Source: Vescimonas fastidiosa | GTDB lineage: Bacteria; Bacillota; Clostridia; Oscillospirales; Oscillospiraceae | DNA length: 64,000 bases | Assembly (NCBI RefSeq): GCF_018326305.1 | Contig: NZ_AP023416.1 | Span: forward strand, 62,001-126,000 | Direction: 5' to 3' | Shown: one piece after another, positions 48,244 to 61,108 of the stretch | Numbering within the stretch: position 1 is the stretch's first letter | Layout of the letters: every line of letters begins with the position of its first letter | Translations under genes and position numbers: made by a program | Notes under the pieces: model-generated | The model's database searches: none | What the model was told of the DNA's origin: nothing | The model's input: the letters and a program-made list of their open reading frames with translations, nothing else

Positions 48244-48347
48244 GGCAGAGTAGGAAAATGTGTGTCCAGTGCCGCCGGGACGGGGAGTTGTCCGGCGGAC
48301 GAAATGACGGCCCACCGTCTGCAGTGCATTTTCCGCATCCCGCTGCC
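48244..48347 (+). promoter_or_regulatory. Tetrahydrofolate (THF) riboswitch
   Basis: P1 GGCAG/CTGCC (48244-48248 with 48343-48347), internal loop AGTA facing GCATCCCG, P2 GGAAAATG/CATTTTCC (48253-48260 with 48327-48334), then a junction with a GC-rich arm. The AGTA and GCATCC bulge sequences are the conserved features of the THF (folT) class. The downstream gene is a folate transporter. Confidence 0.85.
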
Positions 48348-56672: not shown

Positions 56673-56701
56673 ATTATAGAGGATAGCGTAGAGAAATGCA
56701 A
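56673..56701 (-). promoter_or_regulatory. Promoter of the CNNM leader
   Basis: Minus strand TTGCAT (56696-56701), a 17-nt spacer and TATAAT (56673-56678). RNA starts about 26 nt before the leader peptide ATG. Confidence 0.88.
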
Positions 56702-56787
56702 GCCGTTCCGCCGATGATGGGGCAATCTGTACGGTGTTTTTACACCCTATACTCTCCTGACAATGATAAAAAAAGGCGTCGGTACGG

Positions 56788-56827
56788 AAAAAACCACGGG
56801 GCATCGAAAGGACGGCCCGTGGTTTTT
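56788..56827 (-). terminator. Terminator of metQNI
   Basis: CCACGGG/CCCGTGG with a 15-nt loop; minus strand continues TTTTTTCCG. Between it and the CNNM promoter (56702-56787) nothing was recognised. Confidence 0.85.
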
Positions 56828-56847
56828 CGGTTATTTTTCTTTCCGCG

Positions 56848-57549
56848 TTATTTTTTTAGGCGCTTGTCGCAGCGGATAGCCAGCTTCGTGCCGATGGTTT
56901 GCAGCACCTGCACCAGCAGCACCAGCAGGATCACCGCCACCAGCATCACCAGGTACTTATAGCGGTAATAGCCGTAGTCGATGGCGATCTTGCCCAGGCC
57001 GCCGCCGCCGATGATGCCGCTCATGGCCGAGTAGCCCAGAATGGTGGTCAGGGCGATGGTCACATTTTGCAGCAGGCTGGGGACGCTCTCGGGAATCATC
57101 ACCCGGCAGATGATCTGCAGGGGGGTGGCGCCCATGCTCTGGGCGGCCTCGATGATATTGGGGTCCACCTCCCGGAGACTGCCCTCCACCAATCTGGCGA
57201 TAAACGGGAAGGCCGCTACCACCAAAGGCACAATGGTGGCCGCTGTGCCCACGGCGGTGCCGATGATAAGCCGGGACAGAGGAAACACCATGATCATCAA
57301 AATCAGAAACGGCACAGACCGCAGCAGATTGATGAGCACATTCAGCACATGGAGAACGCCCTTAGGCAGGGGCAGCACGCCGCCCTTTTCTCCCACCACC
57401 AGCAGCACGCCCAAAGGCAGGCCGATAACAGTGGCCAGGAGGGTGGAGAGCAGGGTCACATAGAGCGTTTCCCAAATAGCAAAGGGTATCTGCGGCAGGA
57501 CCGCCTGCAGATCCGCCAGGGACGACGGGGAAAACAAATCACTGTACAT
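56848..57549 (-). CDS. metI: Methionine ABC transporter permease MetI
   Basis: 233 residues, five or six membrane helices. [31 protein letters not shown] is the EAA loop of MetI, and [19 protein letters not shown] is typical of D-methionine permeases. The start overlaps the end of metN by 11 nt. Last gene of metQNI. Confidence 0.95.
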
Positions 57550-58546
57550 GGTGCTCCACCTCCTCTACCTGAATATTGGGATAGGCCTTAATGAAGTCCA
57601 CGGCCCGGTCAAAGTGGGCGCTGGGGATGCCCAGGAGCATACTGCCGTAGACCTCCCGGGACAGCTTTTGGGTGCTGGCGGAGATGACATTGCAGTAGAT
57701 GCTCTCCTCCGCCGCCAGCCGGGCAACCAAGGGAATACCGGTGGTCTGGCTATCACGGAAAATGAGGCGCACACGGCGCTCCGAGGCGGGATCGGACACC
57801 AGGGCGTCGGCCCCGCCGGGGAACACCAGCCGGCGGCCGGCTGCGGACTTGGGGGCGGCAAACACCGCCGACACCAGGCCCTCCTCGGCCACCTCGCCGC
57901 CGTCCAGGATGGCGACCTTATCGCAAATTTCCTTCACCACGCTCATCTGGTGGGTGATGATGACCACGGTGATGCCCAGCTCCCGGTTCAGCTCCCGGAT
58001 CAGCTGGAGAATCTGGTGGGTGGTGTTGGGGTCCAGGGCGCTGGTGGCTTCATCGCACAGCAGCACCTTGGGATTGGTGGCAAGAGCCCGGGCGATGGCG
58101 ATGCGCTGCTGCTGGCCGCCGGAGAGCTGGGCCGGGTAAGCATTGGCCTTATCCGGCAGGCCTACCAGGTCCAGAAGCTCCCGGGCGCGCTTTTCCGCAT
58201 CGGCCTTCTTCATGCCGCTCAGCTCCATGGGGAAGCACACATTGCGCAGGCAGGTGCGCTGCATGAGGAGGTTGAAGTGCTGGAAGATCATGGTGATCTC
58301 CCGGCGAGCCCGGCGCAGGTCCTTGGCGGACATCTGCTCCAGCTCCTGACCGTCCACCCAAATCTCCCCGGAGGTGGGCCGCTCCAGCAGGTTCATGCAC
58401 CGAACCAGGGTGCTTTTGCCGGCGCCGCTCATGCCGATGATGCCGTAAATTTCGCCCTTTTCTATCGTGAGGGAAACATCCTTCAGCGCTTCCACTTCTC
58501 CCCCACCGGAGTCAAATGTTTTGCATATATGCTTGAGCTCGATCAT
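57539..58546 (-). CDS. metN: Methionine ABC transporter ATP-binding protein MetN
   Basis: 335 residues. Walker [10 protein letters not shown], signature [15 protein letters not shown], Walker [13 protein letters not shown]. The C-terminal NIL domain (about 250-335) binds methionine and gives feedback inhibition of transport. 22 nt after metQ. Confidence 0.97.
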
Positions 58547-58568
58547 GTTTGTTTCCCTCGTTTCAAAA

Positions 58569-59429
58569 TTACTTGGTCAGGGCGTCCAGAGAGGTCTGCT
58601 TGCCGCCGTAGAGGCCCATGGGCTCCACATGGATGGTGGCGATGGACACGATGTGGGTGCCCTGCTCCTTATTGAAGTCCTCCAGGTAGGGCAGGTGCTG
58701 GAAGTAGTTGGCGTCCACGGTGCCGTCGTCTACCACGGTGTTGGGCACAACATAGTCATTGTAGCTCTGGATATCCAAGGTGATGCCCTTAGCGGCCAGG
58801 ATGGTCTTGGCAACCTCCAGGATCTCGGCGTGGGGGGTGGGGGAGGCAGCGATGGTGATGGTGGTGCCGTTCAGTGCAGCGTAGTCAAGGGAGGAATCAT
58901 AGCCGTCGGTGGGGTTGGTAACGGTGCTGACCACGGAGCCGGCATACTTCTCGGTGATGAAGTCAGCCACCTGCTTGCTCTCCAGAGCAGCCTTCAGGGC
59001 CAGGATCTTGGGCAGGTTCTCATTGCCTTCCTTGACGCAGAGGATGTTGCCGTAGGCGGAGGAGGAGCCCTCGATGGCCAGAGCATCCTTCAGGGGATTG
59101 AGGCCGGCGTTGATGGCGTAGTTGGAGTTGATAACGGCGTAGTCCACATCCTGCTTCACATTGGGCAGCTGGGCGGCCTCAGCCTCTACGATCTCCACAT
59201 TGTGGGGATTTTCCACGATGTCGTTCTTGGTGGCAGTGATGCCGGCGCCGTCCTTCAGCTTGATGATGCCCTGCTGCTCCAGCAGAAGGAGGGCACGGGC
59301 CTCGTTGGTCGTGTCGTTGGGAACGGCGATCTGAATGGTGGTGGTCTTCTTGCCGCAGCCGGTGAGGGCCAGGGCCAGGGTCAGCACAAGGGCCAGGACC
59401 AGAGCGGTGAGCTTGGTAGTCTTTTTCAT
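58569..59429 (-). CDS. metQ: Methionine-binding lipoprotein MetQ
   Basis: 286 residues. Lipoprotein signal ending LTGC, Cys25. NlpA/MetQ fold with [18 protein letters not shown] and [12 protein letters not shown], typical of MetQ. SD AAAAGGAG upstream. First structural gene of metQNI, behind a two-ORF leader with attenuator. Confidence 0.95.
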
Positions 59430-59508
59430 GGTTTTATTCTCCTTTTTAATAATATAATGATGTCGGATTTTATGGGAAATGGGGCTATTGCCTCGGTTAC
59501 ACTTGCTT

Positions 59509-59574
59509 TTATCGAATCGTGCCCGGAGGACACATTCGGTGACCCGTGGCGAAGAGACGGTAGAGCTTTTTCAT
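59509..59574 (-). CDS. Second small ORF in the metQNI leader
   Basis: 21 codons from the ATG at 59574, preceded by AAAGGAGGATGACCCC, a strong SD. Reads MKKLYRLFATGHRMCPPGTIR. It lies between the attenuator terminator and metQ, so it is translated only on read-through transcripts. Function unknown; it could tune metQ translation or mRNA stability. Confidence 0.5.
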   Translation of the reverse strand: MKKLYRLFATGHRMCPPGTIR

Positions 59575-59593
59575 GGGGTCATCCTCCTTTGCC

Positions 59594-59632
59594 AAAAATA
59601 ATACAGCGGGAAGCCAAATGACTTCCCGCTGT
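59594..59632 (-). terminator. Attenuator terminator of metQNI
   Basis: 11-bp perfect stem ACAGCGGGAAG/CTTCCCGCTGT (59603-59613 with 59622-59632), loop of 8; minus strand continues ATTATTTTTGG. It lies 31 nt after the stop of the Met-rich leader peptide. Confidence 0.9.
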
Positions 59633-59663
59633 GGTAAGCGATACCCGCGGCCCTAATGACCGC

Positions 59664-59771
59664 TCAGGCGTTTTGGGAAAGCAGATGGCTGTTTTGCGCG
59701 CAAGAAAACATGCACATGCACATGGGCATGCACATCTGCATCATCATCATGCTGCGGCCAAACTGCTTCAT
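59664..59771 (-). CDS. Methionine-rich leader peptide of metQNI
   Basis: 35 codons from the ATG at 59771, preceded by GAAAGGAG with good spacing. Residues 8-21 read MMMMQMCMPMCMCM: nine Met and three Cys in 14 codons, 10 Met in all. The peptide then ends FSCAQNSHLLSQNA. It is preceded by a consensus promoter and followed by a strong terminator and the methionine transporter, the arrangement of amino-acid attenuators such as trpL. Ribosome stalling at the Met run when charged tRNA-Met is low would be expected to allow read-through. The peptide has no signal or known family. Confidence 0.85.
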   Translation of the reverse strand: MKQFGRSMMMMQMCMPMCMCMFSCAQNSHLLSQNA

Positions 59772-59807
59772 ACTGCTTTCTCCTTTCGTCTGTTTTTTGT
59801 TGTTGGC

Positions 59808-59836
59808 ATAGTACACCCGGAGGGCGCATCTGTCAA
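59808..59836 (-). promoter_or_regulatory. Promoter of the metQNI leader
   Basis: Minus strand TTGACA (59831-59836), a 17-nt spacer and TACTAT (59808-59813). RNA would begin about 30 nt before the leader peptide. No S-box, T-box or SAM riboswitch elements in the leader. Confidence 0.92.
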
Positions 59837-59950
59837 CCGGGTTTTTCACATTTTGTCATTTTTTCTAAAAAAGAAAAATTTATCACCTCGTGCTTTGTGA
59901 ATTGGACAAGGTTTTTTCGCATTTCAGGGGGCGCACAGCCAAAAAAATAA

Positions 59951-59979
59951 TGGCAATTCCCCGGAGAATATGGTATACT
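59951..59979 (+). promoter_or_regulatory. Promoter of the ornithine-racemase-like gene
   Basis: TGGCAA (59951-59956), a 17-nt spacer and TATACT (59974-59979). Confidence 0.65.
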
Positions 59980-60010
59980 GTCTTTATCTGTGAAAGATCG
60001 AGGTAGGATC

Positions 60011-61108
60011 ATGGATAGAAAATTTCCCCGCATTGTAATAGATCGGGACAAGCTGCGCAACAACTGCACCCAAATCGTCAAGCACTGTGAGGCCCGGGGC
60101 ATAGCCGTGGCCGGTGTGATAAAGGGGGCAGGCGGACTGCCGGAGATTGCCCGGCTGTACCGCAGCTGCGGCGCAGCGCAGCTTGCCACCAGCCGCCTGG
60201 AGCAGATGGAGCTGTGGCGTCGGGAGGGTATCCCGGGGCCGTATATGCTGCTGCGGGTGCCGGGGCTTTCGGAGCTGCCGGAGGTGGCTCGGCTGGCGGG
60301 CTACTCCCTGCAGAGCGATGCCACCACCCTGGATGCGCTGAACAGCGTCTGCGCCGAGCAGGGCGTCACCCATCGGGTGATCATTATGGCTGATCTGGGG
60401 GATCTGCGGGAAGGCTTTTGGGATAAGACGGAGATGGTGGAGGTCTGCTGCCATGTGGAGCAGGGGCTTGACCACCTGCACCTGGCCGGTGTGGGGGTAA
60501 ACCTGGGCTGCTACGGCGCGGTGAAGCCTACGCCGGAGAATATGGGGCAGCTGGTGGACATTGCCCGGGCCGTGGAGGCACGGATCGGCCGACAGCTGGA
60601 GATCGTCTCCGGCGGCGCCACCAGCAGCTACACCCTGGTCCACTGGGGTACTATGCCCCAGGGCATCAACCATCTGCGCATCGGCGAGACGGCCTTACTG
60701 GCCAAGGACCTGCAGGTGGATTGGGGCATCAGCGACATGGATTACCTGCTCCGGGGCACCATGCGCCTGGAGGCGGAGATCATCGAGCTGCGGAAAAAGC
60801 CCACCCATCCTGTGGGAGAGACGGTCATAGACGCCTTTGGCAACCGCCCCACCTTTGTGGATCGGGGTATGCGACTGCGAGCCCTGGCGGCCTTTGGCCG
60901 AGCGGATGTGGGGCAGGTGGAGACCCTTCTCTGCCGGGAGCCGGGTATGACGGTCATAGGCGGCTCCTCGGACCACTGTATTTTGGATGTGGAGGATTGC
61001 CCCCGGGCCCTGCGGGTGGGGGATGTGGTGTCCTTTGACCTGAGCTACAGCCATATGCTCTACGCCACCGGCCGGACGGACATAGCGGTGGTTTTTAACG
61101 GCGCATGA
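60011..61108 (+). CDS. Alanine/ornithine racemase-family PLP enzyme (Orr-like)
   Basis: 365 residues from the ATG at 60011 (GAGGTAGG upstream). Fold-III PLP barrel: PRIVIDRDKLRNNC opening, Lys in GVIKGAGG as the Schiff-base residue, HLAGVGVNLGCYG and SGGATSSYTL as phosphate-binding parts. The group includes ornithine racemase (Orr) of clostridial oxidative ornithine breakdown and YhfX-like proteins. The partner genes oraS/oraE are not here, so substrate is uncertain. Confidence 0.8.
   Translation: MDRKFPRIVIDRDKLRNNCTQIVKHCEARGIAVAGVIKGAGGLPEIARLYRSCGAAQLATSRLEQMELWRREGIPGPYMLLRVPGLSELPEVARLAGYSLQSDATTLDALNSVCAEQGVTHRVIIMADLGDLREGFWDKTEMVEVCCHVEQGLDHLHLAGVGVNLGCYGAVKPTPENMGQLVDIARAVEARIGRQLEIVSGGATSSYTLVHWGTMPQGINHLRIGETALLAKDLQVDWGISDMDYLLRGTMRLEAEIIELRKKPTHPVGETVIDAFGNRPTFVDRGMRLRALAAFGRADVGQVETLLCREPGMTVIGGSSDHCILDVEDCPRALRVGDVVSFDLSYSHMLYATGRTDIAVVFNGA

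Follow-up and report, generated by a model that had tools for sequence, protein, structure and literature searches.

The metQNI genes of Vescimonas fastidiosa are very probably controlled by a classical leader-peptide transcription attenuator, in which a short Met-rich reading frame (ORF1) and the intrinsic terminator behind it would sense elongator Met-tRNA. Computation establishes each part of this arrangement: an SD-preceded ORF with a run of Met codons, an intrinsic terminator, an antiterminator that co-evolves with it, and cognate downstream genes. The initial annotation of this DNA had proposed a Met-codon attenuator of metQNI, and comparison of leaders strongly supports that proposal through the Met run, the terminators, the antiterminator and the link to Met genes.

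Layout of the metQNI leader

The leader lies in the window, the 64,000-nt stretch of DNA analyzed here, whose positions are used throughout. On the minus strand the elements follow in the order promoter, SD, ORF1, terminator, second SD, ORF2, metQ, metN and metI. Those up to the terminator are:

59808–59836, minus strand: sigma-70-type promoter TTGACA-17-TACTAT, 10/12 consensus matches
59664–59771, minus strand: ORF1, a 35-codon Met/Cys-rich leader peptide, SD AAAGGAG upstream
59709–59750, minus strand: Met run, ORF1 codons 8–21 (9 Met, 3 Cys), the proposed Met-tRNA sensing stretch
59675–59690, minus strand: antiterminator strand in the ORF1 tail, AGCCA 59690–59686, UG 59683–59682 and UUUCCC 59680–59675 (RNAduplex, swap tests)
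59594–59632, minus strand: intrinsic terminator, 13-bp stem 59632–59603, 4-nt loop, U-rich tail 59602–59594, −23.6 kcal/mol
59612–59627, minus strand: antiterminator partner, GGGAAG 59627–59622 (5’ arm), CA 59620–59619 and UGGCU 59616–59612 (RNAduplex)

The claimed TTGACA-17-TACTAT promoter was found at 59836–59808, and is the top of 7 such sites in 56700–60100, where shuffles give 1.7 expected. ORF1 runs from an ATG at 59771 to a TGA ending at 59664 and encodes MKQFGRSMMMMQMCMPMCMCMFSCAQNSHLLSQNA; the sequence bears out the annotated 35 codons, with nine Met (residues 8, 9, 10, 11, 13, 15, 17, 19 and 21) and three Cys (residues 14, 18 and 20) between residues 8 and 21. This composition is exceptional among the window’s SD-preceded ORFs of 20–62 aa, 322 of 323 of which do not exceed 4 Met in any 15 residues, against 9 in ORF1.

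Conservation and gene context of ORF1

Searching 60 relatives for MetQ gave matches in 27, including 15 close single-piece homologues, all of the same genus and with the source genome counted among them. The search of related genomes for Met-rich ORFs, suggested in the initial annotation, found one upstream of metQ in all 15 of these loci, with the Met run kept. ORF1 equivalents in other clades stand upstream of metQ, metN, metY or metA. An ORF1 profile matched 9/394 genomes of the order, 27/300 of the family and 4/391 of the class, the source genome being included each time; most sampled genomes have no match, and the distribution is thus patchy. The profile matches occupy 37 distinct places, 35 of them before Met genes and two (L072 and L073) chance matches. 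For 80 metQ loci of named genomes, the top-ranking 80 of 591 homologues, an SD-preceded ORF with at least 5 Met in 15 residues occurs upstream in 36 on the sense strand, compared with 1 antisense and 0 in shuffled windows. Named genomes in which ORF1 is present include an uncultured Clostridiales genome whose MetQ is 94% identical (L133) and that of Oscillibacter sp. ER4 (L137).

For comparison, 77 distinct leaders were collected, distinct in the sense of distinct peptides, some of them closely related, and 75 were kept. One dropped entry (L092-) is a chance ORF on the opposite strand with a hairpin of −2.6; for the other (L100-) a hairpin of −6.8 was taken from a later site because the ORF frame extends beyond its own terminator. 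The next gene in the 75 leaders is metQ (54 by motif, plus L172), metN (11), metY-like (8) or metA (1), proportions that are biased since many leaders were gathered via MetQ; the profile matches are the fairer sample of downstream genes. These calls were made by motif, with one by eye, and six were spot-checked with NCBIfam. The genes following L069, L087 and L098 are O-acetylhomoserine sulfhydrylases and that following L083 is MetA, all above cut-off, and the best matches for those following L081 and L172 are MetN and MetQ/NlpA, respectively, both below cut-off.

In the peptide alignments, the invariant columns include several of Met and none of Cys. This bears on the proposal that ORF1 is a nascent arrest peptide sensing a ligand such as free Met, SAM, Cys or a metal rather than Met-tRNA supply, with the same terminator and antiterminator responding to the arrest. 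Alternation of M and C at conserved positions and an enrichment of Cys to 9% of residues would fit such a peptide. However, only the Met columns are invariant, some leaders have R, G, Y or S in place of Cys, the Met-rich window lacks Cys in 8/75, and the length and tail of the peptide vary, the tail being constrained by RNA pairing; arrest by ligand is therefore improbable. The Cys codons may still add sulfur sensing, as suggested in the initial annotation: the 9% share of Cys would favor this, and the variable Cys columns and the 8/75 leaders lacking Cys speak against it.

A structured RNA, either a riboswitch or a T-box-like element, could instead be the sensor, with the ORF incidental. The leader RNA (59590–59800) does fold strongly, at z = −6.0 with equal stability in 0/200 shuffles, and T-boxes precede metQ in some relatives: in Faecalibacterium a T-box stands before a permuted metQ (L211; E 8e-20, 88.2 bits against a gathering score of 93), T-boxes were seen by eye upstream of two further Faecalibacterium metQ genes (L206 and L210), and another lies upstream of metQ in a Lachnospiraceae MAG (L202). 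In the window leader, however, Rfam finds no SAM riboswitch, T-box or other match even at E ≤ 1, and the reading frame and its Met codons are kept across divergent leaders, making an RNA sensor of this kind very improbable. The source genome has one SAM riboswitch match, away from the metQNI leader. Elsewhere in the window, a THF riboswitch (Rfam RF01831) lies at 48244–48347.

A co-evolving antiterminator

By computation, the leader contains an antiterminator that is mutually exclusive with the terminator. The terminator had been annotated before metQ with an 11-bp stem; it is present at 59632–59603, and the stem is 13 bp with a 4-nt loop. A hairpin followed by a U tract at E ≤ −10 is found in 75/75 kept leaders (median −19.4) versus 124/750 shuffles; before rows were dropped the count was 75/77, the two dropped leaders being the sole weaker rows.

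In the window, the ORF1 tail and the terminator pair as AGCCA:UGGCU, UG:CA and UUUCCC:GGGAAG, where UGGCU covers the terminator loop and the inner 3’ arm. A possible pairing of CTTTCCC with GGGAAG had been noticed in the initial annotation; it is one half of the antiterminator, although CTTTCCC lies at 59681–59675 rather than 59672–59678. Folding for mutually exclusive helices supplied the other half, AGCCA:UGGCU, and the computed antiterminator co-evolves with its terminator but does not switch at equilibrium. It also appears in the MFE structure of the window’s truncated transcript. The same plan recurs in the 75 leaders, with a block of the UUUCC type pairing with the 5’ arm and a second block with the loop and inner 3’ arm. 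Compensatory pairs are seen between loci: AGCCA:UGGCU in L001, AGCCG:CGGCU in L003, GUCAAAG:CUUUGAC in L006, GGUCAUCA:UGAUGACC in L007 and UUUCCAAC:GUUGGAAG in L015.

Across the leaders, the RNAduplex mean z between the ORF1 tail and the terminator is −1.41 ± 0.12, versus −0.17 ± 0.14 for the Met run. When native partners are compared with swapped ones, z is −11.3 (n=75), −8.3 after dereplication (n=48) and −4.8 within the genus (n=15). Control segments give no signal in this test (Met run z −0.5, spacer +2.0, downstream +2.0); the reversed tail retains z −4.3 and is not null, so base composition may contribute to the swap signal. In only 5/75 leaders does the native terminator rank first among all partners, and it is outdone by an average of 21% of foreign terminators. 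Significance for single sequences is modest: their duplexes reach p ≤ 0.05 in 23/75 leaders, with p = 0.06 for the window, and a first antiterminator test, in which the 5’ and 3’ arms were taken separately, gave a weak signal (mean z −0.37 and −0.09).

When the transcript is truncated 5 nt into the 3’ arm, 61% of the 5’ arm and loop is paired with the tail, versus 34% with shuffled tails; the native value lies above the shuffled one in 69/75 leaders (Wilcoxon p 9e-14; window 58% versus 42%), and 34/75 exceed at least 95% of 25 shuffles. A switch computed at equilibrium failed: the terminator prevails even with a ribosome placed in the Met run, and only 3/75 leaders switch. The mean equilibrium probability of the terminator is 0.89 with the ribosome stalled versus 0.96 with it at the stop codon, and 0.98 in both states for the window. 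Since the terminator prevails at equilibrium in 72/75 leaders, the antiterminator must form co-transcriptionally, before the 3’ arm is complete. Dependence on co-transcriptional kinetics is usual for leader-peptide attenuators.

The co-evolution of tail and terminator also weighs on the idea that ORF1 encodes a functional Met/Cys-rich small peptide, for example a metal- or redox-binding one, followed by an ordinary terminator, with metQNI expressed by read-through or from another promoter. The strong promoter and SD that ORF1 has of its own would fit such a peptide. This reading would leave aside that 35/37 profile places precede Met genes and that a terminator stands nearby in all 75 kept leaders, with which the tail co-evolves; moreover, the peptide has no Pfam match and a single sub-threshold NCBIfam match (E 0.14). 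A free-standing function for the peptide is accordingly hardly to be expected.

Proposed mechanism and relation to known systems

We infer translation of ORF1, the ribosome footprint, stalling and a response to methionine. Under attenuation by Met-tRNA supply, a ribosome with ample Met-tRNA would cross the Met run and reach the stop codon, where its presumed geometry would have it cover the tail strand AGCCA..UUUCCC; with the tail covered, the terminator would fold and transcription would end before metQ. When Met-tRNA is scarce, the ribosome would stall in the Met run and leave the tail free; the tail would then pair with the newly made 5’ arm and loop while the 3’ arm of the terminator is still incomplete. 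Antitermination of this kind would allow the polymerase to continue into ORF2 and metQNI.

S-box and T-box RNAs are the textbook means by which Firmicutes regulate methionine genes. By comparison, many Clostridia appear to place a peptide-coding attenuator, and not an S-box or T-box, before metQ, metN, metY or metA. Leader-peptide attenuation itself is already known. Like trpL and hisL, ORF1 is a short translated ORF in its predicted role, with a run of cognate codons, a terminator and a mutually exclusive antiterminator. Unlike them, it would sense Met, it stands in Clostridia before metQ, metN, metY and metA, its tail is itself the antiterminator strand, and in some loci a second leader ORF follows.

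A comparable published case is metL of Streptomyces lividans, which precedes metNIQ and is a short ORF with Met and Cys codons (..RCMCRRMCAF); it is reported to be leaderless, 29 aa long, with two Met besides the start and without a typical Rho-independent terminator (PMC8079986). Met runs, a terminator and an antiterminator distinguish ORF1 from metL. Among the matches listed for the open-access literature, no other methionine leader-peptide attenuator was found. Attenuation of the same type is described in Firmicutes for other amino acids, His (PMC2965389) and Leu in the S. aureus ilv-leu operon (PMC5794164), and the available excerpts of these reports mention no tandem second ORF. The S. 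aureus met leader is a T-box, a tRNA-sensing transcription attenuator of methionine genes, in which the RNA binds uncharged tRNA directly; the excerpt of that work mentions no leader peptide (PMC3771891). Cys leader peptides of Actinobacteria have runs of Cys codons in the leader ORF and no terminator, and a conserved RNA element upstream of Met operons is reported there as absent (PMC1262725). They share with ORF1 a run of sulfur-amino-acid codons, Cys in theirs and Met here.

The ORF1 leaders and the T-box of Faecalibacterium may thus represent one tRNA-sensing device replacing another. Leaders of the ORF1 and ORF2 kinds would also account for short ORFs seen upstream of methionine genes.

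metQNI and methionine supply

The genes downstream of the leader are:

58569–59429, minus strand: metQ, methionine-binding lipoprotein, circularly permuted
57539–58546, minus strand: metN, ABC ATPase with NIL domain
56848–57549, minus strand: metI, permease

NCBIfam Met models are the best matches of all three, below curated cut-offs. In MetQ, residues 188–285 match 4ib2_A 10–107 and residues 33–167 match 111–249, revealing a circular permutation. The permuted order is common to 20 aligned leader-linked MetQs, and four other members of the genus have the pieces in canonical order; no report of a permuted MetQ/NlpA was found among the literature matches listed. In the source genome, metY was not found with a 155-aa probe that was positive in two control genomes, a Cys/Met-meta PLP scan gave partial matches only (3/7 above the family cut-off), and a metH scan gave two pieces, both below cut-off. 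Import may be the main source of methionine.

A second leader ORF

The initial annotation overlooked a short, SD-preceded ORF between the terminator and metQ. This ORF2 is a separable second leader module and the most novel part of the leader:

59509–59574, minus strand: ORF2, MKKLYRLFATGHRMCPPGTIR, with SD AAAGGAGG, 3’ of the terminator, in-frame equivalent in 14/15 genus loci
59533–59538, minus strand: CGA-AUG codon pair of ORF2, within CGAATGTGTCC
59519–59533, minus strand: small hairpin GUGUCC-UCC-GGGCAC, overlapping the ORF2 end (by eye)

Each of the 14 genus loci has an SD-like site after the terminator and CGA-AUG-UGU in frame; no equivalent was seen in L007. The hairpin is kept in 12 of the 14 loci with the motif; L011 and L015 have lost it. 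As the cause of CGAATGTGTCC, a repressor-binding DNA operator (palindrome GTGTCC-N3-GGACAC) was considered. The pattern CGAATGTGTCY occurs 22 times across 32 genus genomes; 14 of these sites lie upstream of metQ and the other 8 at unrelated positions, and the pattern reversed as a control gives 20 matches, so an operator regulon was rejected.

Relatives of ORF2 in other families read ..EKLVRANFRFGRM(C or stop) and precede metY or metQ. An ORF2 DNA pattern occurs in 49/384 genomes at 52 places, compared with 7 places for the reversed control pattern. Of the 30 places inspected, 29 precede metY, mostly without ORF1 (26 assigned by a long ORF and 3 recognized by eye at the start); L115 is the exception. 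In 17 RFGR-type ORF2s of other clades, selected without the codon pattern, the final Arg is CGA in 17/17 and AUG follows in 16/17; six codons occur for the Arg earlier in the motif, and 2/164 Arg codons in metQ of the 80 named loci are CGA. In L082, a degenerate ORF2 with a broken frame that is not among the 17, CGG replaces CGA (by eye). Two CGA-AUG pairs occur in the ORF2 of Oscillibacter sp. MSJ-31 (L134), which has no ORF1 by the criteria used here.

Pairing between the end of the RFGR-type ORF2 and the following gene’s SD is favored (41 loci, mean z −0.96 ± 0.24), versus a mean z of +0.07 ± 0.13 in 51 loci with other ORF2 types; these counts come from scoring 92/120 candidates, and some plainly spurious ORFs are left in them. 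The corresponding swap test gives z −3.6 (p 0.00045, n=29 dereplicated). The signal is statistical, and several single loci have no pairing. For the RMC[PL] type found in the window, anti-SD pairing was not detected by swapping (p 0.12, n=20, comprising the genus and a few others; p 0.26, n=15 dereplicated), nor does the window ORF2 end pair with the metQ SD (z +0.5).

In other clades, ORF2s of the RFGR type resemble translational attenuators acting on metY or metQ. As in attenuators of the ermC type, pairing is possible between the uORF end and the next SD; unlike those, ORF2 has the CGA-AUG pair, and the pairing goes undetected in the window’s type. It is conceivable, if somewhat doubtful, that some Met operons of these Clostridia have two stacked ribosome-read sensors, ORF1 as a transcription attenuator and then ORF2 as a translational attenuator with a CGA-AUG pause, and that ORF2s form a new and widespread family of uORFs that does not depend on ORF1. 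The ORF2 ribosome would pause with AUG in its A site and, in its P site, CGA, the rarest Arg codon of the neighboring metQ, so that decoding of a single Met codon would be the sensor. By covering the anti-SD within the uORF, a ribosome paused there would make the SD of metY or metQ accessible. With its CGA-AUG pair, ORF2 allows one to test directly whether a single codon can become an amino-acid sensor through a slow codon pair.

Two further features were observed by eye near metY. At L125, a degenerate Met/Arg/Cys ORF1, a terminator-like hairpin and then ORF2 precede metY. Many metY promoters (L103–L132 and L099–L102) have inverted repeats, for example ACCTAC..GTAGGT, that overlap the −35/−10 region and that we take to be perhaps a CymR/Rrf2-like operator.
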